Source: Chlorella sorokiniana | Lineage: Eukaryota > Chlorophyta > Trebouxiophyceae > Chlorellales > Chlorellaceae | Reading direction: 5' to 3' | DNA: 64,000 nt | Assembly (NCBI GenBank): GCA_025917655.1 | Contig: CP084620.1 | Location: 3,100,001-3,164,000 of the forward strand | Shown here: piece by piece, positions 1,619 through 26,270 of the stretch | Layout: every line of letters starts with the position of its first letter | How positions within the stretch are numbered: the stretch's first letter is position 1 | Translations under genes and position numbers: made by a program | Notes under the pieces: model-generated | Databases searched by the model: none | What the model saw: only the letters and a program-made list of their open reading frames with translations | What the model was told of the DNA's origin: nothing

Positions 1619-4600
1619 TCAATCAGCATCCTCCTGCAGCCGCTGCAGCACTTCTGCCGCGCTGGGGCGCCGCTCCAGCTCGGTGGCAGTACACGCTTCC
1701 ACCAGCTCAACCACAGCCTGAGGGAAGAAAACAAGAAGGGGACATTGCAAAAGGTGAGGGAGAGCAGCTTGCAGGCGCGAGTGCCTCTGCCAGTGCAGAC
1801 TCTGGCCATGCCGACCGAAGCAACCAGCAAGCACACAACACCGCAGGATACGATCACCTGTGAGCACTCCAGCGGCGCCCGCGGCAGCCGCCAGGCGCCG
1901 CGCCGCATCACCGCCTGCCCCGTGGCCAGCTCCGCGAGCAGTACGCCCAGACTGTACACGTCGGCGGCGGCGGTACAAGGCTCCCCCAGGACCTGCTCCG
2001 GCGCAGCGTGGCTCAGCGTGAAGCCGCCCGCACTGACGGGGCGCCAGCGGCGGCCAGCCGCGCCAGGCCCAGGTCTCCGACAAACGCGTTCATCTGCCCG
2101 TCAAACATCACGTTGCTGCGCGCAGCCGGGAAAGACGGGCTGGGCTGTGCGTCTTGGAAAGAACTGGGGAAGCAACGCTCATCTGCTGATGTTGCATGCC
2201 GTAGCCCAGGCACCAGAGCGCTGCGCAGCCGTTGCAGCCCGGCCAGACTGGAAAGAAAGAGGGAGCCGGTGATGCAGGCGACAGGGCGGGAGGAAGCCAA
2301 GGAGACGAATGAGGACCGCCCAGGAACCAACCACAGCTTGGCAGCGCCGCACTTGCTGCTTAGGTCTCGGTGCACGACGCCCCGCCGGCGGTGCAGGTGG
2401 TCCAGCGCCGCCGCCAGGCGCAGCGCCACGTGGCGGCCCCTGCCAGCCGGTACAACGGCACAGCGCAGCGCAACGCAGCGCAGCGTCAGCACCATCGGCC
2501 AGGTGGCGCTGCAGTCAACTCGGCTGCCGCGGTGCTCCGTTCCATTGCGCCCCATACTTCAGGGAAGAAGCGGCATGCAGGGCGGCTTGTGGGAAGCAGG
2601 TGCACGATCGCCCACCTGGCCCGCCAAGCCAGCACCCGCTGCCCCTCAGGCTGCAGCAGCGCCGACCGCAGCGTGCCGCCTTCCATCAGCTGCATGGCCA
2701 GCAGCAGCACGGGCCCCTGCGCGGCGGGGAGGAATGCAACGCCGCTCGTCAAACGCAACACCGACGGGCGGCCTGCATCGGCGGCTTGGCTGCCAGCCTC
2801 CCTGCGGGAGGGGGCCGAGCAGGACACATGCTGCCGCCGCTGAGCCGGCACCAGCAAGCCGCGGAGACCTCTCCCAGCTGGCCTGCCCGCCGTCGATGCA
2901 GGCGGCGTCGCCGCCATGGCGGCCCTCAGGAGGCGCCGAAGCATCGGTCCCGTGCTGCTGCAGCTGCTGCTGCCGCTGCTCCTAAACAGGGCAGCAGCAG
3001 GCGCGGCCACTCGCCTGCACCGCCACCCCCAGCAGCGGCACTATCGCTTCGTGGGCGCAGTCGCGCAGCAGCGCCGCCTCGCGCCACACGCGCGCGGGCT
3101 GGGCGCCGGGCCCAACCTCAAAGGCCTGCAGCGCGGAAGGCGGCGGCGGCAACGGAAAAGGGCGGATGCGGGTGATTGGGTGGGCGTGGGTGGGTGGGGC
3201 TTCCGTCTGCGGGCCGGGTGCAGCTGCGTGACATGGTGCTGTAGAGCTGAAGAAAGAATGGGAGAAGGAAGGAAGAGCCTGAGGTTCCGGAGCGGAGCGC
3301 AGCTGGCGAGCCAGCTGCTCTGTCGCCGCCGCGCCGCTTCAAGGCACAGCCCAGGGAGGGGCGAGCAGGGGCAGAAGGGGCCGTGGCTGATGGCTGCAGG
3401 AGCAATTCAGTCCAAGCCGCGGCGGGCCGAGCAGCAGCCGCCACCCACCTTCACCGCGACTTCCAGCCCGCTGAGCACGCCGAGGTAAACCACAGCGTGT
3501 GAGCCCTCGCCCAGCACGCGCAGCAGGCCGTCGCTGCCCACCACCAGCTGCGACGAGCGAGGCAGGCAGCGCAGTTTGGCCGTGCCGAGGGTAAGGCTTT
3601 GATGCGGCGGAAACGAGCAGAGGTGCCACGCAGCAAGCGGAGAAGCTGCCCAGGCAGACTTTGCAGCTCTGGAGACGGCAGCGCGCACGGGAATGAGGAA
3701 GGGTTGTGGAGCAGCAGCACAGGAAAAGGAGGGGCAGCACGTCCGCCAAGCATGCCGAGCTGAGTTGAGCCGTGCATTGCCCACCTGCAGCTCCCCCTCC
3801 TGCAGCTGCAGGGAAGCTGTATCCAGCCCCCAGCGCTGCTCGTCGCCGTTGCTGCAGCCAGCAGCAGCCCACCCCGCGGGCCCGAGCTCCACCTCGCCCG
3901 CAGGGGCCCCAAACGGTGAAGCGGGGCGCCGCCGCGCCGCCGAGACGCCAGCTGGTGTGCCAGCTGCGGCGGCACGGCCTGCACCGGCCGCATGGTGATG
4001 CAGCGGCTGCCGCTGAGCGTCTCGCGCTGAAGCACGGAGTCCAGGCGGCGACGGCGCGTGGGTGGCAGCGCAGCGGAAGGCTGCACCTCCACGCAGCGTG
4101 TGCCGCTGCTGCGCTGCGCCCGCTGCGACGGGGACGCCAGCAGCGGCTTTCTGTCGAGAGGCCGCAGTGCTGGGCGCCGCAGCCGCCTCCACACCAGCCA
4201 GCCGGCCGCGGCCGCCGCGACAGCTGCAGCTGCCACCACCGCGGCTCCGGCGCTGCCGCCCGTCGGCGCGCGTGGCTGCGTTGCGGCTGCTGCTGCGTCG
4301 GTGCTGTACTTGCCCATATTGATGCTGAACATGCCATCTGCTAGTCGGGTGCCGCAGCTGGGCGGTTCAGGGCTGACGGAGGTGTCGGCCACCAAACTGC
4401 AACGCGAATGCTCGGTTGCATCAGCATTCACAGCAAACACAGCAAAACAGGGCCCACACACAACGTGGCGTACGGCACTGCGAGGCCTTGCAATCAATTC
4501 AGCGCAACGCGGCTCAGCGCGTCGCAGCGCGCGGCGGCTACGGCGACGTCTCTCACAGCGAGCTGATGACGACCTTCGTGCCGCCGCTGCACCAGGCCTC

Positions 4601-7600
4601 TGGGATGCTGCCAGACATGCTGGTGCCGTTGAGTGCGCTGCGGCAAGCGAGAAGGAAGGAGGAGAGGAGAACCCCGGGGGCGGCTGCTCAGTGCGGCAGG
4701 AGGTGCAGGGTGGGGGTGGGCAGTGCGGATGGGACCACCAGCGATGTGCGGCACTGCACAGCAGCAGCGGCAGCAAGGACAATGGACGCCAGGACAGGCA
4801 ACGCTGTCAACCAGGTCGACGCTCACAGGATGTTGAGAACGGTCCAGGGGAGCTTGGCAGGCAGAGTGCCGGTGAGGCCCCGGTTCCCTGCCAGCTCCAA
4901 GTCGGTTGCCCAGTCGATGAGGGCACCCTCTCGCTGCCAGGCGGGTGGCAGGGCGGGGCCAGTGAGCGCGTTGCTGCTCAGCAGCAGCGTCGTCAGCTGC
5001 GGGGGAGGCGGTAGGGGAGCATGCAAGCGTGCGTGGTTCTAAACTTTCTGAGGTGTGCCTTTGCTTTCTGTGTCTCCGGTTTGTAGGGAAGTGGTGCGGG
5101 TGGGGGCCGGGATGTGTGCGTCTGTGTGCCGAGGGTGGACGAGGGGAGCAGGTGCGCACCCGCTTGCGGCCCTGCTCACCGGTGCATCTGCCCACTCTGG
5201 CGGCAGCGTTCCACTGAACAGGTTGTCTCGCAGCTGCAGGAGGGCCAGAGGGGAGGGGTGGAGTTAAGGTGCACGCGCAGGCAGAACGAGTTCAAGATGA
5301 GGTGCCAGCCTGAAGGGTGGGCGGGCTCACAGCGGCCTTGCGCCTGCGGGCCCCCCCCCCCCGTGTCCCACCCACACATCCCGCCACGCACACATGCACC
5401 AGTATCCCACAAAACACGCTCCGACTGACATCAAGCAGCGCAGCTCAGACACGGCAGGGCGGCACAGCGCAACCAACCAACCCTGCTCGCCATGCAGGGA
5501 GCGGCCTGCGTGGAACGCACCGACAGGAAGGGAAAGGTTCTGCGCCCTTGAAGGATCGAGGCTGGAAGCGGGCCAGACAGGCGGTTGGAGGAAAGGTCTC
5601 TGCAGGAGTGGCGGGCGCAAGGGATTTCAGGGTGCTTGCTGCCCTGATCGACGGTGGTGCCGCGAACGCGGCTCGCCGACTGCACGTCCCATTGTGTGGT
5701 TGGCTTTCCAACAGCTCCCGTGCACTGTAACCTTCCCATCCGTGGCTTCAGGGGCCGCAGATCAGGTCTGTGCACGGCTCGAGAGGCAGCAGCAGCCACG
5801 CCTGGGCGGGGCTCCGCCACGGCTTGCAGCCGTGCAGGTGGCAGGTGGCAAAACCAGCAGGCGAACTGGCATGCTCAGCGCGCCCCAGCCCCCTGCACCC
5901 CTCTCCCCCCCCCTCCCCAACCTTCCAAAACAAAGACACACACTTCACAACGCACACGCATTGCAAACCCCCAAGGCCGCCAGGCAACCAAGCCAGCTCA
6001 CAGCGTGGAGAGGTGGGGAAAGGCGCCGCCGCGCAGCCAGGCGGCGGGAAGGCTGCCGGTGAGGCCAAGGCCCGACAGCGTCAGAGTCTGCAGCGCCGGA
6101 AAGGCGCCCGCCCAGCCCGGTGGCAGCCCGGCTGCTTGACGCCGTGAGGCGTCGGCGGCGCAGGCGGGGCCCTCTCGGTCTTGTGTAGGGAGGCAAGTGT
6201 AATCGGATGATACGTGCAGCTGCAGGCAGCGCACAGCAATTTGTGGATTCAGAGCTGCAACTTTGCAGAGGCAGGGGTGCAGCCTGGCTCCCGACAGAAG
6301 TTTGCATGCAGCCGCCCCCCCTCCCCCAATACAAAAACAAAAAAATCAACAACAACAGGTTGGCCGCACCCCATCAACGGGACGCCAGAGCTGCTCGGAA
6401 GCAGCGGCGCAAGCGACGCAGCGCGGCGCCTCACCCCACGCAAGCGTCGAAAGCCAAGGGCCCACTTGGGCGGGAGGCCCCGCGCACTGACCACCGAAGA
6501 TGGAGGATCTCCAGCGCTGGCAGCACCCGTGGAGAGGCGCCCCAGCCGGCGGGCAGCGCGGCCTCCAGGCCGGGCAGGATGAGGAAGAGGCGGCGCAGCG
6601 AGGGCAGCGCACCGGCCGCAGCGGCGGCGGTGGGGGCTGCCCGGGGAACAGCGCCTTGCACGTCCAGACTGCGGACAGCAGGCAGCCAGCCAGCAACCGC
6701 CACTGAAGGCCCCAGAGGGTGCTAGGCTCACCCTTCCCAGATCGATGGCAGTCCAGCCGTGTCACCCAAGCGCGGCAAGGCAAGCAGGACTGAAAGGGGA
6801 AGAGAGCGACTGCAGCGCAGGCAGCAAGTGCGGGGCAGGCCGCCCCCCCCCCCCCCGCCAGCCCCAGGCTCACATTCGCAAGCTGGGGAAGGCACCCTGC
6901 TGCAGCCATTCCCACGGCACGCCCGACGGCAGCGGCAGATCCTGTGGCAGGTCCAGCTGCAGCCGCACGAGTCGAGCGAGCCGCGCCAGCGCAGGCAGCA
7001 GCGGGCCGGGATGCTGCTTGGCGGCGGCGCCGCCGCCCGCTGCCGCTGCTTCGCCCGCCGCCGCCGCCGCTCCTCGGGAGAAGTTGAGCTGGGTGCTGGC
7101 CAAGTAGTTGCGTTCGTTGAAAATTCCCGCGCCCTTCAACTCGCTGCGTACCGGAGCAGCAAGGGAAGGCGGGTCATCAGGGCAGGGCTGCGGTGTGACG
7201 CGCAGCAGAGGAGGCGGCGCAGCACGCTGGCCCCAAAGGCAGCGCGCGCCCTCCCTTTGGCCGCCACTCACAGCACCTCCACTCGCCCCTCCTCATCGCA
7301 CTCCACTCCCGACCAGGAGCAGTGCGGCAGCGCAGCGCCCGGAGCCAGCCGATGCCGGAGCCGGGGAGCCAGCCAGAGAAGTTGGCGGCGCCGCCGCCCC
7401 ACGCCACCACCGCCGCCCGCAGCTGCTCCATGATGCCCGCCTCATCCGCCACACCTGCAGGCGGGATCGGCCGGCGCGTTGCAAGCACCCGCTCGCTTGG
7501 GTGCACGGGCAGAAGCTGAAAACTGACAAGCTGGGGGTGTGCGCAACGGCTGAACATGGCTCGGCGACGCGGTCTCACCCTCCACGTCAGCTTGGGCGAC

Positions 7601-7678
7601 TGCTGCTTGCCATGCTGCCAGCAACAGCAGAATTCCACCTATGAAACGGATGATGGCGGGCCAGCTTGAATGGGCCAT
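1619..7678 (-). CDS. LRR receptor-like protein kinase A (RD type)
   Basis: Start ATG at 7678 opens a signal peptide (hydrophobic core IIRFIGGILLLLAAWQA) ending at a GTGAGA donor. The LRR cap (HCSWSGVECDEEGRVEVL) is near 7270-7330. Leucine-rich repeats follow in small exons, for example near 6000-6230 and 4830-5001 (LTGTLPAKLPWTVLNIL). The exon 3785-4396 holds one transmembrane helix (about 4190-4255) ending in WRRLRR. Kinase exons: 3449-3547 (P-loop GEGSHAVVYLG, Lys in EVAVK), 3015-3125 (alpha-C, WREAALL), 2616-2716, 2353-2439 (VVHRDLSSN), 1858-2115 (GDLGLAR, APE) and 1619-1717 (RPSAAEVLQRL, stop). The catalytic loop is HRD, unlike copies B-D, and DFG is replaced by DLG. The 1858-2115 exon is out of frame by one base at 2038-2041; another shift is needed in the juxtamembrane region. 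Probably a plasma-membrane receptor; ligand and substrate unknown. Confidence 0.82.
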
Positions 7679-8391
7679 AGGTCGACTGCGAGCCTATGGA
7701 AGCCACCGGCGGGGCCGCCGCCGCAAACTCCCAGCGGCGGCCAGCAGCATGGCGCCCTTGCCGGGACGGTTTGAACACGCCGCCGCTTCTTCAAAATGGG
7801 TTGATACGTTGGCTATTGTTGCCGGACGGGTGCGAACAGCACAGCGATCGAGCGGGGCAAGTTGCGAAAGAGCTTGTTTGGTCAATCTGGTGCAGTTGTT
7901 AGCCTCCGAGAAGCGGCATGCCGCAGGAATGCCGGCAGTTCCATGCCCCCGCAATGCCCAACCCTCCTTGCCTCCACGTCAGCAACCAAACCCCCACGTG
8001 CCTTGCTTTTCATCTATGGGAACAGATTGCAGTGCAGTGAAACACGTTTGGTTGCAGGTGAAAATTGGAATAAGTCAGAAACACACAGGACTTTATGTTT
8101 CCGGGGCCCTAATAATGTGAAGGTTGCTGAGGGTATTGGCACCGCTGATGGTCATAGCCTGGCAGGGCATCCTCTGGAGAAGGCTGGGTGAGACCTGCAG
8201 AAAGCAGCATCCGCTACCTGAGTTAGGTCCACCCGATGATCCCCTTGCAAACAAGCAGTGATGTGCACAGCAACTCCCAGCACGACTGGCAACACAAGGG
8301 CCTGCCTCACCTCAACGCAGGCCTCAATGTGTCGTGAGTAGCATTCGTGGCGGCGCGCTCGATCCGTGCACATCGGTCGCGACGGCTGTCG
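7679..8391. other. Intergenic between receptor kinases B and A
   Basis: About 710 bases between the stop of copy B and the start of copy A, both on the minus strand. It must hold the 3' untranslated region of B and the promoter of A. Open frames here have no recognisable protein features. No clear TATA box or repeat was seen. Confidence 0.35.
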
Positions 8392-11300
8392 CTACCTGCA
8401 GCCTTGCTCCAGCTGCTGCAACACGGCCTGTGCGGTGGGGCGATCCTCTGGCTCAATGGCCGTGCACAGCTGAATCAGCTCCACCAAGTCCTGCAGGGTA
8501 ACAGTGCATTGCTTCTGCTTGCAGGAGCGGAAGAGAAAATGCCCCGCTCACTGGGCCCCACAGCACCCGTCGGAGGAACAGCAGAGCATGTTCCTATGCG
8601 TTGTGCAGCAGCATCGCCGAGTCACGCGGCATGCTTGCCTGCGAGCACTCGCCGGGCGCCACAGGCAGGCGCCAGCTGCTCCGCCGCGTCACCGCCTGCC
8701 CCGTGGCCAGCTCGATCAGCAGCACCCCAAAGCTGTACACGTCGGCCGCCAGGGTGCACCGCTGGCCCAGCACCTGCTCGGGGCGGCATGCGTCAGGCTG
8801 AAGGCGTGCGCGCTGAGCGTCCCGCTGCCCACAAAGCGCGCCAGACCCAGGTCGCTGATGTGTGCACCCAAGTCCTCGTCCAGCAGCACATTGCTGCATG
8901 GCATGGTGCGCCCAGGGAGCAGGGAGACAGTCAGCCTCCACCCCTGAACCACAAACGGTCCGAACCAGCAGCAGCATCACCAAGATTCCCCTGTTCACGC
9001 CGGCAGACCAGCCGCACCTGCTGCTCAGGTCGCCGTGCATGACGCCCAGCTGGCCGTGCAGGAAAGCCAAGGCCCCGGCCAGCGCCAGTGCGACCTCGCG
9101 GCCCCTGCGCTTGCAACCATTCATGGTTGGAACGGCGACGTGGGAAAGAGCGCTGGAAGCAGCACCCAGCGCTCTCCACTGCACTCCGGCAGCGCAGCTT
9201 GCCTGGCGCTCCAAGCGAGGAGCCGCTTGCGCTCTGGATGCAGCAGCGCCGCGCGCAGGCTGCCGCCGCGCATGAGCTTCATCGCGAGGAGCAGCAGCTG
9301 GCTCTGCGCAGAATGGAAGCAGGAGGAACGGCCCTGCACGCCGTCAGCCAGCCAAGTGGCATGGCAGCTTGCAAGATGGCGCAGCACAGGCTGCAGGCCT
9401 CACCCGCACCGCGATGCCGTACAGCGGTACCACGTGCTGGTGGGAGCACTGCCGCAGCATGGCAGCTTCCCGCCAGATGCCGCCCGAGTCGGTGCCAGCG
9501 TCCAGCTCAAAAACCTGGGGTGGGATGGGTGGGTGGGGAGCGCAGCAGCAAGCTCAGGGAACGCTGCTGGAGCCGACCCCTCCCCCACCCCCCACCCCCC
9601 ACCCGTCGGCTGCCTGAACTGCCTGCGGCGCTGGAGGGAGCGCTGCCAGCCGGCGCCGCTCACCTTCACCGCCACCTCCGCCCCACGCAGGCGCCCCAGG
9701 CACACGACGCCGAAGCCGCCCTGCCCCAGCACAACAGGCAGCCCGTCCTTGCCCATCACAACCTGAGCAATGCGGGGAAGGGCAACGAGTCTGGTTGATG
9801 TGAGCATGGGAGCGAAGGCCGCCACACCAGCGTGTGGCTTGCTGGCCAGCGGCGGCTGATGGCAGCGTCCCACCCCTCGCCTCGTGGACCCCGCCTGCCC
9901 AGCCCACCTCCAGCTGTTCCTCCGGCAGCTGCAAAGAAGCTGTGTCGAGGCCCCAGCCCCGGCAGCTTGATGCAACGTCGCGGGATGAGAGCTCCAGCTC
10001 GGAGGCTGTGCAGCTGACGCCGCCGCCGGGTGACCGCCGCTCGCCACGGCTGAGCAGCTGGTGCGTCAGCGCCCTCGGCAGCGCGTGCACAGGCAGCACG
10101 CCCAGCGGGCGGCTGCCGCCGCGCGTCTCACGCAGGAGCGTGGCTGCCAGCTGGCGCCGACGGCTGAGCCACAGCTCGGATGCAGCGGCGGAGGCGCAGT
10201 CGCTGCCGCTGCAGCCCAGCTGCATGTCGCTGCTGCCGGTTGGGGGCTGGCTGTGCAGCAGCGGGCGGCGCTCGTGCGTTTTCAGCACACGCTGCCGCCG
10301 CCAGACCACCCAGCCGGCTGCTGCCAAGGCTCCCACAAGGACTGCTGCCGCCGCCACGTAGGCACCCACAGCGGGTCCGCCCGCAGCCGGGGCTGCTCGT
10401 GGCCTGACCAGCTGCCCATCAGCTTCCACCAGCTTCCACGGGTGCAGCAGCTGCGTCGCGCACGCAGGCAGGGCTGGCTCTACCGAGGTGTTCCCAATCC
10501 CGCTGCAGCAGGAGCAGCGGGGCAGCAGCCAGCTCGAAGGACCCTCCCCTCCTGCCTTGCTTGGCATCTCTGCCAAGACCGGCTCCCAGCGCAAGGGCAC
10601 GCAGAGCGGGCGCTACCGCGCATGCCGCTGAGGCAGACGCCCGCGCAGGCGCGCCCCCAACACAAGAAGCAGCGCATGCTGCAGTGCATGCAACGCATCC
10701 TGCCGCTCACCCTTAAACGAACGCACACAGTGGGTGGACCACGCAAGCACCCACACACCCACACACTCACACATGCATCCCAAGCACTCCCACAGCCGCC
10801 ACAGGCATCCACCGACCACCCACCCACACCCACACGCCCACACACTCACTCTGCATCCCAAGCACTCCCACAGCCGCCACAGGCATCCACCGACCACCCA
10901 CCCACACCCACACGCCCACACACTCACACATGCTCCAGTGATTCCGCAAACGGCGCGGAGCACCAGGCTGCAGGAACGGTGCCGGACAGGCCGGTATCCC
11001 ACAAGTCCCTGCAGGGCACGCAGCCGCGGCAGGGTTGCATGGCCAGGCAACAGGGTCACGAGCAGCAGCCGAGAAAACAACCCGCGTGGGTGAGCGCCGC
11101 CAGGCAAGCCGTGTTGGGCAGCAGAGTGGGGTCAGGAACGGGCAGCTGTCAGGAAGCTGCGGCGCCGCCCAGCAAGGCCCACATGAACTGCAGCCGGGGC
11201 CAAGCCAGCTGTTCCGGAAGCGTGCCCGCCAGGCCCGTGTTGCCGCCCAGCTTGAGGTACTCAAGTTGCGGCAGGGCCCCGCTTTCCAGCCAGGCGGGCG

Positions 11301-13699: not shown

Positions 13700-14076
13700 C
13701 GCCGCCGCGGCCTAACGCTGAGGCGGCGTTAGGCCCGCTGCACTCCCGCTCTGACGATAATCATGCTACGATGCTATCAGCGCCGACATCTGACCGGGGA
13801 GACCCAAACGACGGGAAGTTTCACGCTACAGTGCGGGAGTCGCTGGAGGCGCCGTGCCCTTCATAAAATACAATGCAGTTGCCGCCACGATTGCGCGAGC
13901 CCCGGCAGCTGCACCGAACATGGCGCTGGGCAGGCTTCAACTGGACGCCAGCATGTCGCAGAGCGTGCTGGGTGCCAGCACCTCCCTCTCCATCCCCCAT
14001 CAATTCCAGCCCCACTCATTTACAGGAGGGCATTACAGGCCGCTGCATGTGATTAGAATGCGGCATTAAAAGCTGC
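13700..14076. other. Intergenic between receptor kinases C and B
   Basis: About 380 bases separating two minus-strand genes. Near 14020-14037 there are two TTACA words on the plus strand (TGTAA on minus) 40-60 bases past the stop of copy C, fitting its poly(A) signal. The remainder should hold the promoter of copy B. Confidence 0.4.
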
Positions 14077-17000
14077 TCAGCCCACTGCCTCCGCCCGCAG
14101 CCACTCCAGCGCCTGGGCTGCGCTGGGGCGCCCCTCCGGCTCGGTGGCGGTACACGCTTCCACCAGCTCAACCACAGCCTAGAGGAGGAAAGCAGGAAGA
14201 AAGACACCGGCGGTAGGGTCTCAAGTTTGCGCACAGACAGCGGCTTGGCCGGCAGCTCACACCGCCAGCCCGCATGCCGGGGCCCCTGGCCGGCTGTATG
14301 CCCACCCCACCTGCGAGCACTCCTCCGGCGGCCGCGGCAGGCGCCAGTCGCGCCGCCGCGTCACCGCACGCCCCGTGGCCAGCTCGATCAGCAGCACGCC
14401 GAAGCTGTACATGTCAGCAGCCAGGGTGCACCGCTTGCCCAGCATCTGTTCAGGGGCAGCGTGTGTCAGACAGAAAGCGCCTGCCGACAGGTCGCCGCCG
14501 CCCATGAAACGCGCCACTCCAAGGTCGCCGATGAAGGCGTTGCAGCGCTCGTCCAGCAGCACGTTGCTGCAGGAAAAAAAGGGGGACGGTGGCGGTTGGT
14601 GGTGGGTGGGGTGGGTGTGTGCGTGTGTGTGTGGTGGTGGTGGTGTGGGTGGGTGGGTGTGGGGGGGGGGGCAGAAGGGTTCTCACAGCTGGTGAGCAGG
14701 CAGGAACTTGCATGCAGCTGCACATGCTGGCCGTAGTATGCAAGAATGCGGGCAAGCCGCCGATCGCACCGCGTGCCCTCCCCCTCCCCCCTTTTCCCCG
14801 CCGCGCCTGCTGCTCAGGTCTCCGTGCATGACGGAGCGGGCGTGAAGGAAGGCGAGGGCGGAGGCCAGCTGGGTGGCGGCGGTCAGGCCCCTGCGGGGAG
14901 GGGCGCACACCATGCAGGGCAAGGTGGAAGAAAGAAGAGGCCATGCCGCCATGCACCTTCACAAGTTTTCCTGCCAGCAGACAGACAGGCGGCTCCACGG
15001 CACGTGAGCACGCCGAGGCCCGGGCTGCCCAGCCTCTGCCGCCGCCGGCCGCCCCAGGGGCAGCCCCGCCCCGCCCACCCGCCCCGCCAGCGCAGCCGCT
15101 CCCTCTTGTCGGGCTGCGCCAGGGCGGCCCGCAGGCTGCCGCCGCGCATCAACTCCATTGCCAGCAGCAGGACTGGACCCTGCAGGAAGGTGCGCGTGTG
15201 TGCACAAGGCTGAAGCCAAGGGCCGTAAAGGGGTGCAAGCGGCGCTGGCGCAAGCTCCCACCGAGGCTTCCTCGAGTGAGGACATGGGGGCCCCTGCTTG
15301 CAGCAGCACACGCGCGTGCCCCCTCCCCCTTCTAGTAACACCTCAACCATCCACACAAACACACACAACACATCCCCTCCGCATAAGATACACACATGCA
15401 CACCCACACCCACCACCCACAGCCACCAGCGCTCTGATGCGCCGCCACCAGGCCTCACCTGCACTGCCACTCCGAGCAGCGGCACCACGTGCTGGTGGGA
15501 GCACTGCCGCAGCATGGCAGCTTCCCGCCAGATGCCGCCCGAGTCGGTGCCAGCGTCCAGCTCAAACGCCTGGGGTGGTGCGTGAATGCCGTGGGCGGGT
15601 AGGGAGGGCGTACTTCACGACAAGATGGACAGGTCTGCTCCTGCTCTTGCGGCTCATCACAGCCTCACCATAGGTGCATGAGGCTTCCAATGAAAGTGGA
15701 CCTTCACACCTATAGTCGAGCAAGGCACGCCAGGCCCACCTTCACCGCCACGTGCGCCCCCCAGCCGGCCCAGGTAGACCACTGCGTAGGCCCCCGCCCC
15801 CAGCTCAACCAGCTGCCCGTCAGGGCCAGCCACCAGCTGCAGAGAAGCGGGGCCACCACGTGGGGCAACAGGGGGCACCTCGGTTTGAAGAGAGGGTGAG
15901 GGGCAGAAAGCCAATTGGGGTTAGCCAGAAGAGGGGTGGGACACCCCCGCTGTGCAGAAGCGCAGGAACAAAAGAAGCTTTGCGGCAGATCACAAGCTGC
16001 CACGGCAGCGTCTTCAGCCAGGGCCCCCATCCCTTCTTCCACCCACCAAAACAAAAACCAACGAAAACAAGAACCGACAGTCAAACCTCCACTGCCGCCC
16101 GCCCCTAAGCGCCACACACAGGAACCCCTCACCTCCAGCTCTTGCTCCTGAAGCTGCAGGGAAGCTGTATCCAGGCCCCATTGCCGGTCCTGCACCGCCA
16201 CACCACGCTGCTGCGCCTGATCGGATGGCTCCGTGGCCGTATCCGCCCCAAGGCCGCTCGCTGCGCCCGCAGCATTGCAGCCGCCGCCGTCGTTCATCTG
16301 GTGGGCAACAGCTGCCGAGAGCACTGGCAGGGGCAGTAGCTCTAGCCGGCCGCCGCCGCCCGCAGCGTGCCGCTGCAGCAGCTGCGCCAGCGGGCGCGCT
16401 GCAGGGGCAGCGCCGCCGCCACGCCCGCACGGCCAAGGTGTCCCTCTTGGCTGGCAGCGCCGTCGGCACGCTGGTGCGGCGGCGTGGGAGCGCCTCGCTG
16501 CGCCAGCGGCAGCAGCAGCAGCGGGTGCCGTTCGCCAGCAGGGCGACCCGCACGGCGGCGCGCCACAGCAGCGCAGCGGTTGCTGTTGCGATGCCTGTGC
16601 CGACCAGCGCTGCCGCCAGCCCCGCGAGGGGTGCAGTGGCGGCAGGGGCTGCCGCCTGACTCAGAGCGGCGCCCGGCAGCAGACGCAGCCCGCCATCCCC
16701 CTCGGGCTCCCCCGCCGCACTTCCAGCTGAGGCATGCTGTGGTTGGCGCAGCGCGGCAGCGTGCCGTTCAGCAGGCCGCCTCCCACCCAGCTGCAGCAGC
16801 AGGGATGCCAAACAGCGGGCGGCGAGCGGCTTTGTTGGCTGGCCAGCGCGGATGGCAGCAAGGCACGTGCGTGCAGCGGCAGTAAAGGGATGTGCGTCGT
16901 TGCCAGCCTGGCCGCACTCGTTGCGACGCAGGGTTGGGGCGCAGCGGAGCGCAGGAGGCAGGCAGCCCAGGGGCTCCCCACCGCCGCCGCTCACAGTCGC

Positions 17001-19983
17001 GTCAGGTGCTTTGCAAACGGCGCGTGACACCACTCGGCGGGTATGCTGCCCTGCACCCCGGTGCCCCACACATCCCTGTTTTGAGGGGGAGGGGCCAGGG
17101 TCGCTTCATCAGCCTGCTCCTCTCTCGTGTCGAGAGGGAGACGGGAGGCAGCCGCAGTGCCGCGCAGGCAGGGGGAGGGGAGGCAGCCGCAGTGCCGCGC
17201 AGGCAGGGGGAGGGGAGGCAGCCGCAGCGCTGCGCAGGCGGGCGGCAGCGGCGGCAGGGCAGCACGCGTGCCACGCAGGCCGCCGCCGCCTCCAGCCGGC
17301 CTCACAGCTGCTGCAGTTGGGGCCAGGCCAGCTGGGGAGGCAGGGAGCCCGTGAGCGCGGTGCCGCCCACAAGGAAGTACTTGAGGCTGCGCAGGGCCCC
17401 GCTTTCCAGCCAGGCGGGCGGGAAGGCCGGGCCCAGCAGGTCGTTGCGTGCCAGCGACAGCATCGTGGCCTGCAGGGGGTTGGGAGCGGGCAAAGGCGTG
17501 GTTGCGCGGCTGGTGGGGCCGATTTCTCCCTTCGCACACCTCTGCTGCGGATGTCATGGGGGCAGTGTGTGGTAACGCTTGTACCGCAAGAGCAAGAGGC
17601 GGCTACGACGGCAGCAGGAGAGCGCCATCATGGTGTGCGCCCCCACCCCCCACCCCGCCTCGCAGCCATGCCGCTGCCAGCAGACAGCTCACGCTGGACT
17701 GTGCCCACTCGCTGGGCAGCGTGCCGCTAAAGCAGTTGCTGTCCAGCTGCAGTTCAAGGGAAAGATCAGGTCAAGGGTAGCTAGCAAGGGCGGTGTGAGT
17801 ATGTGTGGGGGTGTGTGAGTGGCGTGGGTGGGTGGGAGGGGGGCATGCGAGAGTGTGTGCTGTTTCTCGGCGAGCCTGCCGGGAGCCACAAGCGCATGGT
17901 AGAAAGCGGGCAATCAAAAGCCCTGAGCAGGCCGATCATGCCCGGCAGGAAGGCGCCCCCCCCCCCCCAGCGCACTGCGGCGAAACACACCCCCACCCCC
18001 ACGTGCACACACCATCAGAGGGGGCTGGAATCAGCTTACCACCAGTGATCGCAGGGCGGGCAGTGCAGCAAAGAGCGTCGGAGGCAGCGTGCCGCTCAGC
18101 TGGCTCCCCACCAGCTGTCTGCGGCACAACGTGGCGGGGGGGGTGGCGGTGGGTTCATCAGCTCCAATACCGGAACCTTTCATCCTCGCATGGACCTGCA
18201 CCCCTACACCACATGCACATCCAGCTTCCCCTCACCATTGACTCCCCCACGCCCCCTCCCCCACACCCCTTCCCCCAAAGACACACATGTGCCCCCCCCG
18301 CCACACACATACACACACAAGCCCAGGCTCACAGCTGCTGTAGGCCCGGAAAAGCGCCAGGCGCCAGCCAGGCAGCGGGCAGCCCGCCGCCCAGCTGCAG
18401 CCCCACAAGCCGCATCGACTGCAGCGCCGGGAAGCCGGCCGCCCAGGTGGCATGCAGCAGCGGCGCCTGCTCCCGCCCGCTCCCCTCCATTTCCTGCGCC
18501 AGGCGGCGGCGCCGCCGCCTTGCCGGGCAGGCGCCGCGGTGCCGCCGCGGCGTGGTGTCTTCCACCCGCAGCTCCCGCAGGCGGCGGAAGCCGCCGCTCC
18601 ACGCGGGCCCCAGCCACCCCAGCAGGCGCAGGCGCAGGTGCAGGCTCTCCAGGGAGGGCAGCACATCGGGGAAAGCTCCCCAGGAGCTGGGCACCGAGGC
18701 GGCGGTGGCGGGGGCGCGCAGCGACAGGTGGCGCAGCGCGGGCAGCGCGCCGGGTGCAGCCCAGGCAGCGCCCGCCTTTGAGTGACAGCAACTCCAGGTC
18801 CAGCCTGCGCAGGGGAGATGACCGATGTTTTTTTGTGGAGAGGGGGCTGCTTCATGCTTGTGTGCACCCTCAGAGGGAGGCTCCCCCGGCCGCTGCGCGC
18901 GTGTGTGCCGCCAGTGCGGCGGGGGTTAGGCGGGGGACAGGGTGGGCATGCAGGGGCCGGCCTTGGTCGGCGAAAGTGCAGCGGCTGGCAACGCCGCCGG
19001 CCCTCGCAGCGACGCCATGCAGCGGCAGCCCGAGCGCACCGCTGCAGGCGGGGGAAGGACCCTGGAAGCCACCAATCGACGGGCGGCGGGAAGGGCGAGG
19101 GGGGGACGCCGGTACCGTCAGGCTCAGCTCCTCCAGCCCATCCAGCTGGATCAGCAGCGGCGGCAGCGGGTCAGGCAGCGCGGACACGTTGAGCTGGCCG
19201 CCGCCCCGCAGCCGAGTCTCTGCGCCCAACGCCACCAGCCTCCTGCGGGCGAGCTTGGGGGAAGCGCGATGGACGCGCAGCGGGCCTGTGGGTGCAGCAG
19301 GCGGCGCGGAGCGGGACTGCGGCACGGTCCTGGAGAGCCTGGATCCCCGCAGCCGGGGCCAGCCAGGTGACGGACCACACTGAAGCTGAGCCCACATGCA
19401 GCCATGCAGCCGGCTGCAACAAGCTGCGGCAAGGCGGCGCAGGGGGAGCCCGATGGCGGCGCTATAGATCAGCTCACAGGGCGACGACGCGGCGGGTGGG
19501 GCTGCACGTCACGCCCTCCCAAGCGCAGTAGTCGTCGCCGTCGCCGCCGCCCGGGTCCCAGCCCTGGGCTGGCATGCCGTCGGCGGCGCCGCCGTAGCCG
19601 ATGCCGCGCAGCGCCAGCATGGGCCCCAGCTCGTCAAACACTTGCACTGCGCACAATGCAGGAGCACATCAAGACAATCAATGCAATCATCAGTGCAGGA
19701 GCAGCACCAAGACAATCAATGCATTCATCAATGCAGGGGCAGCACCAAGACGGCGGGAAGCATTCACACGAGTGCACACCTCGCTAGCTGCGCTGCTGCG
19801 GCGCACGCTTGGCATGCAGCGCTGGCAACGTCAAAGGTTTGAGAGCCGGGGCCTCCCAACCCTTGCACCGACTGATTCGGGTGCTGAGCATGCAGGCCGC
19901 TCACCATCCGTGGGAACGGCGGCCAACGCCAGCATTGGCGATAACAGTGCCGCCATGAGCCAGAAAGCCTTCCCAGACGCCAT
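14077..19983 (-). CDS. LRR receptor-like protein kinase C (non-RD, HGD)
   Basis: Exon 1 (19983-19905) encodes the signal peptide KAFWLMAALLSPMLALAA. It joins in phase to exon 2 (19646-19478), the LRR cap with DDYCAWEGVTCSPTRRVV. LRR exons include about 18329-18694 and 17305-17466 (LTGSLPPQLAWPQLQQL). The membrane helix (about 16560-16650) is followed by a juxtamembrane stretch ending at 16133 in WGLDTASLQLQEQELE. Kinase exons: 15740-15836 (GAGAYAVVYLG), 15459-15569, 15079-15179, 14807-14890 (SVMHGDLSS), 14311-14566 (GDLGVAR, APEQ, intact) and 14077-14178 (stop). The P-loop exon is 97 bases instead of 99, two bases short at the C run 15757-15762. Other shifts are needed around 16700 and in the juxtamembrane region. 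The intron after HGDLSS uses a GC donor. Closest relative in the window is copy D. Confidence 0.8.
14581..14672. repeat. G/T-rich intronic tract with runs of GGG and GGT
   Basis: A strand-biased stretch of GGT, GTGTGT and GGGTGGGTGGG followed by twelve G, inside the kinase-domain intron of receptor kinase C. The plus strand has enough closely spaced G runs for G-quadruplex formation. The gene is transcribed from the other strand, so the RNA would be C/A-rich. Confidence 0.7.
17146..17245. repeat. 35-bp tandem repeat, three copies, in an intron of receptor kinase C
   Basis: Units start at 17146, 17181 and 17216. The first two are identical (AGGCAGCCGCAGTGCCGCGC then AGGCAGGGGGAGGGG); the third is diverged. 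It sits between LRR exons of copy C. Open frames across it (AALRLPPLPLPARHCG type) are repeat artefacts. Confidence 0.85.
19655..19755. repeat. 37/38-bp tandem repeat, about 2.6 copies, in the first intron of receptor kinase C
   Basis: Units beginning TGCAGGAGCA/TGCAGGGGCA start at 19657, 19694 and 19732 and contain CAAGACAATCAATGCA. They lie in intron 1, between the signal-peptide exon and the LRR-cap exon. Their base composition is more AT-rich than the surroundings. Confidence 0.85.
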
Positions 19984-20910
19984 TTTCGGGGCGCTGGGAG
20001 CGCCTAGGCGGCGCCTGGCAGCCCTCAGTGCACTGCGCAGGGAGATGCAGCTGCCTGCGGCATGAGCGGTAGCGGCGCCGGCGGGCTGCGGCAACACGTT
20101 GCAGGCTAAAGGTGCGGTCTCAGCGCCGGGTGCCCTCGACAGATCGCTTTGTCGATTTAGAAACGCCGGTGGGGACGCAACGAGCCTCAACCCAGGGCAA
20201 AGCAACAAACTATTCTGCGAACCGGCAGCCGCGAGGGAGTTTGGAGCTGTGAGCGCCACAGGACGGCCGCCAGCACAGCTGGTCTCCTGCAAACGTCGGC
20301 AAGTTGAACCGGGCTGCCTGCTGACACCCGCCACGTCACCGGCTTGCTCAGTCAGAGATCCCGTCAATTCCACAAGTGCCGGCTGTAGATGGAGGCAGGG
20401 GGACCCTCACAAGTTCAATGGTGTCCTTAAACACATGTAAGGGGACCGACATGATATAACACGGTTCATTTAAAGGCCCTTTGAAGGCCCGAGGATCCAG
20501 GTGGGTTTCCGCGTCAGCGTGCAACACATGAGGGCCAGCACGGCCACAGGTGGCGCTGGCAGTGACAACTACAGTAGCAAACAGCACATGCATTACTTCA
20601 GGGAAAAATAGTATGGCAAAAAATGTGTCTGAGACAATTGCGGTGTTGGTCAAGGGTTCCTGTTTAGTCAGGCCGTGTGTCCCGTCAGCCGAGTGGGGCA
20701 GCACACCCACGAGCCTGCAGAGGAGCACGGGCAAGCGGTCCACCGAAGGTCGCTCCGGTGCACGCCAAACAGAGCCTGACACGCTGCCATTCATGATGCT
20801 CCCACCTGGAGACAGCCTGCTCAAACAGATGGACGCCTTGGTCTTGCACAGCGTGATGGGGAAGCATTGCGAAAGCCACGTGCACGACGTATGTTGCCCC
20901 AGCTGCAGCG
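19984..20910. other. Intergenic between receptor kinases D and C
   Basis: About 930 bases with noticeably lower GC than the genes. It holds the promoter of copy C and the 3' end of copy D. A 158-codon minus-strand open frame (20824-20348) with some hydrophobic stretches overlaps it, but there are no recognisable motifs, no splice context and no family match, so it is not called a gene. Confidence 0.35.
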
Positions 20911-23900
20911 TCAGCTAGCCGCCTCCGCCTGCAGCCGTTGCAGCACCTCCGTGGCGCTGGGCCGTTGCTGCGGGTCAGTCGCTATGCACGCCTCAACGAG
21001 CTCCAGCGCTGTCTGCACAGAGATGGATCAGGTTGATGGATCACTTGAAGAAGGGCACGAAGACAGCCGCTCTGTGCGTTATTGCAGCACAGCACCTTCA
21101 TTCGCAGGTCAATGCAAACAAACTGCATGAAGCGTGATCATCTGATCCAGCCTACCTGCGAGCACTCGTCCGGCGGACGTGGCAGGCGCCAGTCGCTGCG
21201 CTTGAGCACCGCACGCCCCGTGGTGAGCTCGATCAGCAGAATCCCCAGGCTGTACACGTCAGCCGCCAGCGTGCACCGCTGGCCCAGCAACTGCTCAGGA
21301 GCGGCGTGAGTCAGGCAGAAGGCGCCTGCAGACAGGGCTCCACCGCCCACGAAACGCGCCACCCCCAGGTCGCCTATGAAGGCGTTGCAGCACTCATCCA
21401 GCAGCACGTTGCTGCAGGAAAAAGGGCGTTGCAAGGATGTGCCATCAGCGTTGAAGAGAGGCAGATGGCAGAGCAGCAAGGGGCTCAGATACCGGCAGGC
21501 AGCACGAACACGAGAGGGCTGGGCCTTGCGCCCATCCTTCGGCTCAGCGCAAGGGGCAGCCGCGCGCCTGCTGCTCAGGTCTCCGTGCATGACGGAGCGG
21601 GCGTGAAGGAAGGCGAGGGCGGAGGCCAGCTGGGTGGCGGCGGTCAGGCCCCTGCGGGGGAGGGGCAGGCTGGGGGTTGCTGCTTCAAACGCTTGCGCCA
21701 AGGGCGCAGGGCTCACGAGGAACACCGACTATCAGCATCAACCCGCGAGCAGCAGCCGCAGGCTTCGCACAGAGGCTGATGACCGCATTCCGGTAGATCG
21801 ACCGACAGAAATGGATGCTGCATGATTCGCCGGCAGCTGCGCATGCCAGGCTGCAACAGCCCGCGGCCACGCGCCTGCGCCACCAGCCAAACTCCTGCCG
21901 CCGCTCAGCGTGCAACAGCGCCGACCGCAGGCTGCCGCCCCTCATCAGCTGCATTGCCAGCAGCAGCGCGCCTCCCTGCCAGTCCCTCAAGTGGGGAGCA
22001 GGAACGGTGCGCTTGGGGAAGAAAGCACAGGCAGGCCTGCTGCCGTCCGCAAAGCGCTCCCCAACATCACCCATGAAAGAAACTCGGCGGCGGTCGTCAC
22101 CTGCACTGCCACCCCAAGCAGCGGCACCACGTGCTGGTGGGAGCACTGCCGCAGCATGGCAGCTTCCCGCCAGATGCCGCCCGAGTCGGTGCCAGCGTCC
22201 AGCTCAAACGCCTGGGGTGGTGCGTGGATGCCATGGGTGGGTGGGGAGGGCGCACTTCGCGACAAGATGGACAGGTCTGCTCCTGCTCTTGCAGCTCATC
22301 ACAGCATCACCACAGATGCATGAGGCTCCCAAGAAAGTGGCCCCCACAGCTCTTTCAATCGAGCAAGGCAAGCCCAGCCCACCTTCACCGCCACGTGCGT
22401 CCCCCCAGCCGTCCCAGGTAGACCACGGCGTAGGCCCCCGCTCCCAGCTCAACCAGCTGCCCGTCGGGGCCAACCACCAGCTGCAGCCAGGAAGGATTGT
22501 GAAAGGCGGCTGGGCCCCCAAATATGGCACTCCGGGTGATCAATCAGCTGGATGAGGGCGTGGGTGGCGAGGGTGGGCCGGCGCGCGGGTCGCGCTGCCA
22601 GCTGGCCATCTTGCCACCGGCGGGGCCCAGCGGCGAGTGCTGCTCAAACCGCAAGGCAGCTGGGTAGGGCAAACCCATGCAGGTGCTGAACGGGTGTGGA
22701 GCCGCGCTCGCGGCGCATGCCGCCCTCATCATCCGCCCCTGCCCGCTCACCTGCAACGCCTCTGGGTGCAGCTGCAGCGACAGGCTGTCCAGGCCCCAGG
22801 GCCTGGGAGTCGCCACATCGCCTCCGCCCGCCGCCACAGCGAGACGGCGGGGGCCTCGAGGGTGGGGCGCCTTGTCGCCCTCAGCCTGTGACGGGGCTGC
22901 CAAGCCCGGCGGAAGCAGCGCCCCTGCGTGGCTGCTGGGCAGGCCGCTGTCGGCGCCATGCAGCTGATGGGTGAGCCCGCTTGGCAGCCTCCGCACCGAC
23001 AGCATCTCTATGCCGCCGCCGCCGCTGCTGCTGTCAGGACTGCCAGCCAGCGGCCTGAGCAGCGCTGCAAGCTGCGCGCGACGAGCGGCCGGTACTGAAG
23101 CGCCCCGCCGCCCCTGCGGCAGCCGCCCTTGCTGCCCACCCAGCAGCAGCGGCCGCCGCTCGCTGCCGGCACGGCTCTGCCGCGCGCCGCGCCGCAGCAT
23201 TAGCGTGGCGGCTACGGCGGCGGCGGCGGCAACCAGCAGGACGCCAAGGCCAGCTGCAAGGCGAGGGCGGGCGTGCGGAGCTCCAGCGCCGCCGCCGCCT
23301 GTCAACCCTGGCAGCTCTTGGGGCATGGTGGCCGTCCCGGGCTCCCAATACATCACCTCCAGCTGAGGCATGCTGGCGTTGGCGCAGCGCGGCAGCTTGC
23401 CGCTCAGCTGAGTGTCGGCGATCCAGCTGCAGCGGCGAGGAGGCGCCGGCGAGGAGCGGGCGGCAGTGCCTGCCGTCAGCAGCAGGGCAGCAGCAGATGG
23501 CTCGGCCCCTGAACAGGCCTGCGCCCCCTGCTCCGCCAGACTGCCCCCTCCACCTCCAGAACAGCCGTTTGCCGGCCGCCGCAAACGGCATGCACAGGCA
23601 CATACAGGCGCCGCTCACAGTCGCGTCAGGTGCTGTGCAAACGGCGCCTGGCACCACTCGGCCGGTATGCTGCCCTGCACCCCGGTGCTCCATACCTCCC
23701 TTTACGTGGAAGAACAGGGGGGGGACCGCGGAGGCGCAGGGGGTGAAGGAGCCAGCACATAGGGATGCGGACAGGAGCATGAGAGCGTGAGGCTGGCAGC
23801 GAGCAAGGCGCACTGCAGTGGGGGAGCCCTGGGCGCCAGCAGACGGCCAGGCCCCGGCGCCACCCGTCGCGGCGGCGGCGGGCAGCAGGCGGGCGCTGCG

Positions 23901-26270
23901 CACGCCACGCTGCGCCTCACAGCTGCTGCAGATGGGGCCATGCCAGCTGCGCCGGCAGCGTGCCCGTCAGCCCTGGGTTCCCGCCCAGCAGCAGCATGGC
24001 GAGGCTCTGCAGGGCCCCGCTTCCAGCCAGGCGGGCGGGAAGGCGGGGCCGGTGAGCGCATTGCGCGTGACAGACAGGATGGCGGCCTGCAGCCGCGGCG
24101 GGGGAGAGTGGGGAGGGCGCTTGCATTGTCAGCGCGGGCGGGCTGGAAGGGGAAGACCAGCAGCCACGGCGCACAATGCACTTGAGGGGAGCGAAGCGGC
24201 GGCAGCGGCCGCACCCGAGACGCCGCCCACTGCTCCGGCAGCGCCCCGCTGAAGCAGTTGCCACCCAGCTGCGACGGGGGGCAGGTGCGCGTGCGCGCGT
24301 CAGGGGAACGGCACGGTTGGGCGCGAGGGCTGCCTGCAGGCAGCGCTGCCATGCCTGGCCCCCACCAGGCGGCTGCCCCTGGGAGGCGCCGCTCTGCTGC
24401 GCGACGCGCCACCCCGCTGCGCTTCCAGCCCACCTCCACCGTCTCCGGTGCGGGCACGCGACGGAAGAGATCCGCAGGCAGAGCACCGCTAAGCCCGCAC
24501 CCTATCAGGTTCCTGCGCGACAGACAGGGAGCAGGTGTGCGCGTGGAGACGACAAAGAGTGACCCTGTAGCTGGCCGAGCGGAAAGAAAGCGGTCAGAGC
24601 GGCCCCGTTACGGCAGAAACCCAAGCCCGCAGCCAGCTGCGAGGGTCCTGAGGCACACCCTGTGCCCCCCAACGCTGATGCTCACAGGTGCAGCAGGGCT
24701 GGGAAAGCGCCGGGCGCGAGCCAGGAGGGCGGCAGCCCGCCGCCCAGCTGCAGCCCCACAAGCCGCATCGACTGCAGCGCCGGGAAGCCGGCCGCCCAGC
24801 CTGGGGGAGCCCCGCAGCTGCTGCTGGGCTGACTCCTCCATTCGCTTCTGCTCCTCCCGTTGCTCCTGCTGCTGCCGCCCTGGTGGCGGCTGCGGCGGCT
24901 GCTCCTGCTCGTCCCCTCCCCCGCTTGTGAGTAATAACTGTGTTGCTCCTCATGTCCCGGGCTTCCACCCTCCTCCCGCTGAGCGCCGACAGGCGCCGCT
25001 GCCGCCGCTGTCCGCCCGGCTGGCAGGCCGCGGCAGTTGTGCCACTGCGCCGCAGTCCCCTCCACCCGGAGCTCGGTCAGGTGGCGGAAGCCGGCGGCCC
25101 ACTCGGGCGGCAAGCCCCCTGCACCTGCAGCTGCAAGTTCAGCCAGCCCAGGCCGGGCAGCGTGGCGGGGCGGCGCCCCCAGCTGGGCGGCAGAGTGGTG
25201 ACGAGGGATTCCAAATTCAGAGTGAGGTCGGTCAGGGCTGGCAGCAACCCAGGCTGAAGGTCGGGCAGGGCGCCCCCTGTTAGAGCCGGCGCCACCAGCA
25301 GCAGCCTGCATGCACGCGGTGGGGGCGGGTACAGATGCGAGGGTGTGTCTGTCGGGGCGGATGGGCGGAAGTTGCAGAGGGGGTTCGGGTGGAGTGGAGG
25401 GGTGGGCGGGTGGAGTGCGGGTGTGGGTGGGGCGAGAAACGCTCCATTCAATCATGCAGCTTGCCCTCCGTCAAAAGCGGATCCCCCAAGGCCCCAAAGC
25501 AAAGGAGCTCAGGCCCGCGCCGCCGCTCACCGCTGCAGGCGCGGGAACGCCCGGCTGCCACCACTCGGTTGGCAGGCCGGAGGGAAGCACGCGCAGCATG
25601 GGCAGCTCCAGAATGAGCCGCTCCAGGGACGGCAGCCTCGCCAGCTCAGGCAGCAGAGGGCTGTCCGGCGGCGCGTGCCCGGGACCCACGCCAACGTACT
25701 CGTCGTCTGTGGCACGGATGGCCATCACAGCACTGTGGGGCGGTACGAGGGAGGAGAAATGCGTGGGAGAGGAAAGGGACGCAGGAGCGGCGAGCCCGGC
25801 TGAGCGCGCAGCTGCCCCTCGCCGCTCGCAGGGCGTCAACGTGCAGCACCCAACGTGCAGCGTGCCTGTCCTGTCCCCCCCCCCCCCCTTGTGCCTCACA
25901 TCTCCACGACACGGCCGCTGGAATCGCACTCGATGCCGTCCCAGAGGCAGTGGGGTACCTGGGAGTCGGGCGCCAGCCGGAGACGTGCTGCGTGTGCAAG
26001 AGCTCCGGGTCAGGCTGCGTGGCCCGCAGGCGCAGCATGATGGCGGCCTCCTCTTGCGGTGATGCTGCGCACATGACAGAAGAGGTCAGGTCAGGCTTGT
26101 GCAATTGTGAGGAGCCAGAGAATCGGGAAGGGAGTGCAGCCACGCCAGGCTGCGCAAGGGGCCAAGAAGGCGACGACGGCAGGCGGGTGCTCACCAAGAC
26201 TGCCGGCGGCGGCAGCTGCGAACGCCGCCGTGCCGGCCAGCAGCAGGAGCAGCGCGAACGGCCTCAGCAT
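20911..26270 (-). CDS. LRR receptor-like protein kinase D (non-RD, HGD)
   Basis: Exon 1 (26270-26195) encodes a clean signal peptide, MLRPFALLLLLAGTAAFAAA, and joins in phase to SPQEEAAIMLRLRATQPD. The LRR cap (HCLWDGIECDSSGRVVEM) is near 25920-25960. LRR exons follow, including 23910-24060 (LTGTLPAQLAWPHLQQL). One 676-base exon (23426-22751) carries the last LRR (LPRCANASMPQLEV), the membrane helix LAAGLGVLLVAAAAAVAATL and the juxtamembrane region. Kinase exons: 22383-22480 (GAGAYAVVYLG), 22101-22211, 21875-21975, 21568-21651 (SVMHGDLSS), 21156-21411 (GDLGVAR, APEQ, intact) and 20911-21012 (stop). The P-loop exon is 98 bases, one short, at the C run 22401-22406; another shift is needed in the LRR cap. 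Two introns have GC donors (21567 and 21874). Likely a plasma-membrane serine/threonine receptor kinase; ligand unknown. Confidence 0.83.

Follow-up and report, generated by a model that had tools for sequence, protein, structure and literature searches.

A tandem array of four probable leucine-rich-repeat receptor kinase genes, with kinases apparently outside RLK/Pelle, in the green alga Chlorella sorokiniana

Receptor kinases with leucine-rich repeats (LRRs) have been treated as a hallmark of streptophytes. We analysed 64,000 nucleotides of the green alga Chlorella sorokiniana (GenBank assembly GCA_025917655.1, contig CP084620.1, forward-strand positions 3,100,001 to 3,164,000; hereafter the window, to whose first letter coordinates refer unless a contig is named) and found four minus-strand genes, A to D, lying head to tail between positions 1619 and 26270, each of which appears to encode LRRs, a membrane helix and a tyrosine-kinase-like (TKL) kinase. 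Our preferred reading, to which we give a probability of about 0.78, is that these are tandem-duplicated genes of the Chlorella lineage for single-pass LRR receptor kinases, in which LRRs would have been joined to a chlorophyte TKL kinase independently of land plants and the product then multiplied locally. If this is true, green plants arrived at the LRR-receptor-kinase design on at least two occasions.

The four-copy array itself is confirmed. Exon-by-exon comparison of the open frames on the minus strand gave four copies, head to tail and with identical block order, the best pair of blocks matching at E = 9.7e-58; with Pfam and hydropathy results, this bears out the head-to-tail LRR–transmembrane–kinase architecture and tandem expansion proposed in a first-pass annotation of this DNA, and the collinearity of the four copies supports the locally expanded receptor family that it envisaged. 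In each predicted protein a hydrophobic leader is followed by a block with the motifs E..(I)M..LR, GW.P, (H)C.W.G(V/I).C and RV, then by LRRs, a short C-terminal LRR segment, the helix, arginines, a juxtamembrane stretch and the kinase. Gene A (1619–7678, about 15–16 exons, stop at 1619; 887 residues as curated) opens with the leader MAHSSWPAIIRFIGGILLLLAAWQAAVAQ and runs through cap, LRRs, helix and juxtamembrane region to a kinase with HRDLSSNN. Genes B (8392–13669, about 16 exons, stop at 8392; 915 residues; leader MVQARPLPWILLAALLAALGPPCYA), C (14077–19983, about 15 exons, stop at 14077; 866 residues; leader MASGKAFWLMAALLSPMLALA) and D (20911–26270, about 15 exons, stop at 20911; 943 residues; leader MLRPFALLLLLAGTAAFAAAAA) likewise carry cap, LRRs and helix ahead of a kinase with HGDLSSSN. 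A first pass of gene building used codon usage and splice signals, with a training set in which three of 58 blocks were in the wrong frame (9406–9522, 9905–9980 and 10046–10250) and stayed in the codon table; the final models combine hand-chosen blocks with peptide pieces located in the window, their exon chains being inferred from homology and splice signals.

The predicted ectodomain resembles that of plant receptors. The leader, evident by eye in all four proteins, passed the hydropathy threshold in A, C and D and not in B, in keeping with the signal peptide claimed earlier. As for the proposed LRR cap, the pattern C.W.G(V/I).C is present in all four, and the LRRNT_2 model (PF08263) failed to reach its cut-off in A, B and D and was unlisted for C. 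The repeats follow the pattern L..L.L....L.G.LP..W, with GAFP often coming next, and units often end LPxxW..(G)AFP; land-plant units have IPxxLGNL. Before the kinase, the motif [LVIMF]xGx[LFIVA]P occurs 8, 5, 8 and 7 times in A, B, C and D, above the shuffled mean of 0.57–0.70 and maximum of 4, and Pfam LRR models exceed their cut-off in A, B and C, so the repeats themselves were correctly recognized at first reading. A Pfam scan of the curated D protein gave no LRR model above the cut-off, and its LRRs therefore rest on alignment with A–C; the LRR part of A shares 49%, 45% and 48% identity with those of B, C and D, respectively. When an LRR profile was compared with the PDB, the best 60 of 178 matches were headed by the plant LRR receptors GSO1 (1e-65) and FLS2 (4.8e-60), each matched in several stretches, followed by MIK2 and PEPR1, scores that are inflated by the repeats. 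The class is nonetheless clearly the plant type (LxxLxLxxNxLxGxIP). Hydropathy placed a helix ahead of the kinase in A–D, where a membrane helix had been claimed.

All four copies have a Pfam kinase (PF00069, PF07714; E = 1.4e-31 to 7.9e-38), and the catalytic lysine, the alpha-C glutamate, the HxD aspartate, the asparagine, the DLG aspartate and the APE glutamate are invariant in the A–D alignment, reading across the frame shifts considered below. The kinase motifs listed in the first-pass annotation are present with variants, namely DVYS(F/L)G(V/I)LL, DMYSFGVLL in C, and HRDLSS in A only, with HGDLSS in B–D. The HxD motif is thus HRD only in A and HGD in B–D, while in five related genes elsewhere in the genome (E, F, G, H and J; see below) it is HSD (E, F), HLD (G) or HFD (H, J); the arginine is absent from eight of these nine genes, whose catalytic loops are mostly non-RD. 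Some land-plant immune receptors have non-RD kinases. Because HGD replaces HRD, the kinases of B, C and D are probably independent of the usual activation-loop phosphorylation.

Similarity scores against the PDB left the choice between RLK/Pelle and tyrosine kinases undecided: the best single-sequence match of the B kinase was BRI1 (98.5 bits), with Src next (94.4 bits), whereas by profile Src (111.7) stood above BRI1 (110.3), and EGFR and JAK/TYK2 ranked higher by the summing of two stretches. We therefore built a tree of 27 kinases, comprising 13 references, the four of the array and ten others of this genome, from which all algal sequences were taken; nine of the 13 reference sequences (all but SRC, BRAF, ABL1 and PKA) were confirmed against the PDB, and that of SRC was entered after the PDB search. 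BAK1, BRI1, Pto and IRAK4 formed a starred clade (support 100/99) with the array outside it, the array formed a clade with E, F, G, H, J and a further kinase of the same genome, L012 (99/96), and CTR1 grouped with two other kinases of this genome (95/88). Constraining the plant receptor-like kinases (RLKs) and the algal clade to group together was rejected by the approximately unbiased (AU) test (p = 0.0039), and with A–F alone at p = 0.00016. On this tree the array kinases are of TKL type and lie outside RLK/Pelle, so that half of the earlier label, TKL/Pelle-like, is retained: the RLK/Pelle clade forms without the array, and nesting within it is rejected. Since the LRRs match plant receptors and the kinase falls elsewhere, the array appears to carry a plant-receptor-type ectodomain on a kinase of another type; and since the clade of that kinase is one of chlorophyte TKL kinases lying outside RLK/Pelle, the joining of the two was probably independent of land plants.

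The same pairing recurs elsewhere in the 38.8-Mb, 15-contig assembly that was searched, in which the window lies in contig C4. With the LRR part of C as query, eleven places beyond the array matched at E 0.001; at seven of them, among the best candidates scored, a kinase match lies 1.7–5.4 kb downstream on the same strand, for which chance would account at about 1% per place by rough arithmetic (126 kinase matches in 38.8 Mb). Five of the seven downstream kinases (E, F, G, H and J) fall within the array's clade, which thereby holds nine or more LRR-plus-kinase genes, with a helix found in five of the nine. Gene models at L001–L004 and L006 again run from LRR to kinase, although such models chain everything on the strand and by themselves say little about whether a locus is one gene. 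The array lies about 92–116 kb from the end of C4, and E, F and J about 45–51, 74–81 and 45–50 kb from contig ends; TTTAGGG repeats were read at all four of these ends, and the G and H loci are internal. Four of the six family loci (the array, L001 at C4:44500–52500, L002 on C12 and L006 on C7) therefore lie no more than about 120 kb from contig ends that bear telomere repeats, a tendency noticed post hoc.

In three of the four copies, open frames run through parts of the junction between ectodomain and kinase. The linking stretch of D (22751–23426, minus strand; open reading frame (ORF) 22544–23614) reads as one exon from the last LRR (SGKLPRCAN) through helix and juxtamembrane region to the pre-kinase sequence WGLDSLSLQL, that of B (9908–10502, minus strand; ORF 9554–10612) has the same content, and in A the frame is open across the pre-kinase exon, the intron and the first kinase exon, from WGLD to VAVK (3449–3851, minus strand; ORF 3407–4366). 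The usual chlorophyte poly-A signal, TGTAA, occurs six times on the minus strand of the first 28 kb: once past A (at 1452, 167 bases beyond its stop), twice past C (14020–14037, 44 and 57 bases beyond its stop, both likely poly-A signals), once inside B, in its first intron (13566), and at two sites upstream of D. In no copy does the motif separate the LRR part from the kinase part, which is weak evidence because it is so infrequent on this strand. Given the open frames in D and B and the LRR–kinase pairing at seven of the eleven other places, LRR and kinase very probably make up one gene.

The copies have diverged unevenly. In the closest pair, C and D, identity falls from 81% in the kinase to 56% in the LRRs, 31% in the juxtamembrane stretch and 24% in the cap, and the ratio of non-synonymous to synonymous substitution (dN/dS; rough values, dS being high) is 0.30–0.46 in the kinase, 0.46–0.76 in the LRRs, 0.60–0.80 in the helix and juxtamembrane stretch and 0.61–1.30 in the cap; LRRs and juxtamembrane regions thus diverge faster than the kinase. 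Between C (14802–14904) and D (21563–21666), 104 bases are 99% identical amid other matching stretches at 66–92%, which suggests gene conversion between the two as a probable event. Separately, an intron of gene B (10774–10923) holds a tandem repeat, seen at the residue level, in which the same 24 residues occur twice in one frame, 78 bases apart.

Several points weigh against the reading of the array as LRR receptor kinases of independent origin. The exon chains are drawn from homology and splice signals, and some of the predicted donors are GC instead of GT. The helix is called by hydropathy alone, which flagged kinase segments of A, B, C and D as well, and in the related genes a helix between LRR and kinase passed the threshold only in H (L004) and not in E, F, G or J. 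Genes B and D have no TGTAA soon after their stops, and one sits inside the first intron of B. The tree contains only 13 reference kinases and has long branches, several of them terminal, and it does not reject a position of the algal clade as sister group of RLK/Pelle as a whole, nor does it establish one (74/45). Lastly, conserved exons are frame-broken in all four copies of the array as assembled.

These breaks raise the question of whether the four genes are pseudogenes in decay. In the first kinase exons of C (15740–15836) and D (22383–22480) the frame shifts at a G6 run just before VAVK, and so just ahead of the catalytic lysine; in the activation-segment exons of B (8639–8892) and A (1858–2114) it shifts at a C4 run, which lies within APE in B and between DLG and APE in A, all on the minus strand; further shifts occur elsewhere in the copies. 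The density is high, with 14 short-gap shifts in 3566 codons, but 13 of the 14 have a G/C run of at least four in the stretch examined (13–48 bases); the fourteenth, in D near 25970, could not be placed, and a fifteenth frame change, with a long gap, in A may conceal an intron. Both in the window and at 22 other loci, G/C runs of 5 are more frequent than expected (observed/expected 232/159 and 679/474, respectively), and those of 6 and 7 are less frequent (20/48 and 6/15 in the window, 97/151 and 29/47 at the other loci); runs of 8 number 11 against 3.2 expected in the window and 14 against 16.7 at the other loci, and simple compression would not explain the window excess. A probable cause is systematic error of run length in the assembly, shifting frames in many genes. 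A glutamine-synthetase-family gene on the plus strand (43626–46173; PF00120, E = 7e-67 after joining frames) has frame changes inside one exon, and HSP70 genes on contigs C1, C2 and C3 are shifted inside very conserved stretches, as judged by eye at three hand-picked loci, of which that on C3 was picked for abutting matches in a changed frame, so that the sample yields no unbiased rate. The alga could hardly live without all of these genes, shifted though they are; indels introduced in assembly are therefore likely to be responsible, and the shifts do not require the array to be non-functional. The dN/dS of the kinase, below 0.5, also speaks against decay, whereas stop-free exon pieces say little because they were chosen as open stretches. 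We judge decay of the array unlikely and infer that its shifts are likely to be assembly errors.

It is also conceivable that the four genes are true RLK/Pelle LRR receptor kinases, whole-protein homologues of the land-plant LRR-RLKs inherited from a green-plant ancestor. Such a descent would account for the shared domain order, for plant receptors as the best PDB matches of the LRRs and for BRI1 as the best single-sequence match of the B kinase, and it could be accommodated by the sister position that the tree does not reject; but Src follows BRI1 closely in that comparison and overtakes it by profile, the starred RLK/Pelle clade forms without the array, and the constraint that would nest the two is rejected. 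The array kinases have, moreover, a short stretch between helices F and H, a feature that we take to be unlike RLK/Pelle. Common descent of this kind seems to us quite improbable. That the LRR proteins and the kinases are separate neighbouring genes duplicated together, a view favoured by the four of five paralogue models with no threshold-passing helix between LRR and kinase, is very improbable: in D and B a single open frame covers the last of the LRRs, the helix and the pre-kinase segment, in A the frame is open into the kinase, TGTAA is lacking between the parts, and the LRR–kinase pairing recurs at seven other places.

If, as we prefer, these are receptor kinases assembled by LRR–kinase fusion in the Chlorella lineage and then multiplied locally, the LRR arc outside the cell might bind a ligand, whether a microbial, wall or peptide cue; binding would bring a receptor together with a second one or with a partner, and the cytoplasmic kinases would then phosphorylate each other and downstream targets. 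A wider proposal, which we advance tentatively and regard as doubtful, is that Chlorella-lineage algae possess an independent, expanding, chromosome-end repertoire of mostly non-RD receptor kinases with plant-type LRRs, a single-cell pattern-recognition system parallel to that of land plants; it draws on the at least nine genes in one clade, the missing HRD arginine in eight of nine, the four of six loci near telomeres and the faster divergence of LRRs and juxtamembrane regions than of the kinase. The array would offer a single-celled system for asking what these receptors respond to prior to multicellularity and life on land, and censuses of RLKs limited to RLK/Pelle kinases will miss receptors of this kind.

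Other kinases of the genome showed arrangements of their own. Loci L005 (C1:3179000–3188000) and L007 (C3:3566000–3575900) have LRR matches 4–5.5 kb upstream, on the same strand, of kinases of CTR1-like type; the L005 kinase groups with CTR1 in the tree, L007 lying outside the tree sample, and the two loci are possibly a second LRR–kinase fusion. L008 and L009 (C3:546000–565000) form a second tandem cluster, on the plus strand, of four or more TKL-like kinases that closely resemble one another (GDLKPQNVLLKTA...GDFGLSRML) and which, with one of them in the tree, fall outside the array's starred clade, and no match to the array LRR part was found there at E 0.01.

The host and neighbouring genes agree for the most part with the first-pass annotation. 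The nearest PDB chain to the nuclear PsaD (6zzx, 6zzy, 7a4p) scored 290.9 bits against 268.5 for the next single-domain chain, 9vfj, with three PsaD-like domains, coming first only by summing domains of 156–161 bits; 6zzx, 6zzy and 7a4p are from Chlorella ohadii according to PMC11121529. This and the TTTAGGG repeats at the four contig ends sustain a green-algal host. Among the neighbours named earlier, the bestrophin and the bromodomain–BET protein are recognized by Pfam and the NOL-like gene matches a short-chain dehydrogenase, which is consistent, whereas the 81-residue MinE-like piece (55124–55735) has no Pfam match at E 0.01.

The statement that LRR receptor kinases are rare or absent in chlorophytes needs qualifying, as exceptions were in print by 2010 and 2011. 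Two LRR-kinase receptors were described from Chlorella NC64A (Soanes and Talbot 2010, PMC2939053), and then five LRR receptor kinases from Chlorella variabilis NC64A, with none in five other green algae, forming a separate clade for which an independent origin was proposed on a tree that was not fully resolved (Dievart 2011, PMC3268121). Like the array, the C. variabilis genes have the LRR–transmembrane–kinase order in a Chlorella and kinases in a clade of their own, there within the receptor-kinase group; the array shows the same order in a Chlorella-lineage alga and, in our own-genome tree, a kinase clade outside RLK/Pelle. The LRR-kinase type is thus already known, since those genes were reported in 2010–2011, and the array is a new, locally expanded member of it, with four genes in tandem and at least nine in one kinase clade against five, and earlier two, in C. 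variabilis, a comparison made by description only. Searches of one open-access library, judged mostly from its listings, showed no paper on the four-gene array. Elsewhere, the combination of LRR and kinase has been suggested to postdate the split from green algae, from five genomes of Chlamydomonas, Volvox, Micromonas and Ostreococcus (PMC5296948), and a review places the first canonical receptor in Klebsormidium and cites a count by Gong and Han (2021) of RLKs in nine of 18 chlorophytes (PMC10868138); the kinases in that count are classed as RLKs, and those of the array, outside RLK/Pelle, are set apart from them by description only. Phytophthora has LRR-TKL receptor kinases with extracellular LRRs that are not close to plant RLKs (PMC3019232, PMC2939053), which we take as a further independent invention; they resemble the array in joining TKL kinases to extracellular LRRs and differ in belonging to lineage-specific oomycete subfamilies with a much shorter LRR region of two repeats (PMC2939053). 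With the land-plant LRR-RLKs (BRI1, FLS2, GSO1, BAK1) the array shares its architecture and plant-type LRRs, whereas their kinases belong to RLK/Pelle and those of the array fall outside it. New here are the tandem array, the nine or more LRR-plus-kinase genes sharing a single kinase clade, their mostly non-RD loops and their lean towards telomeres.

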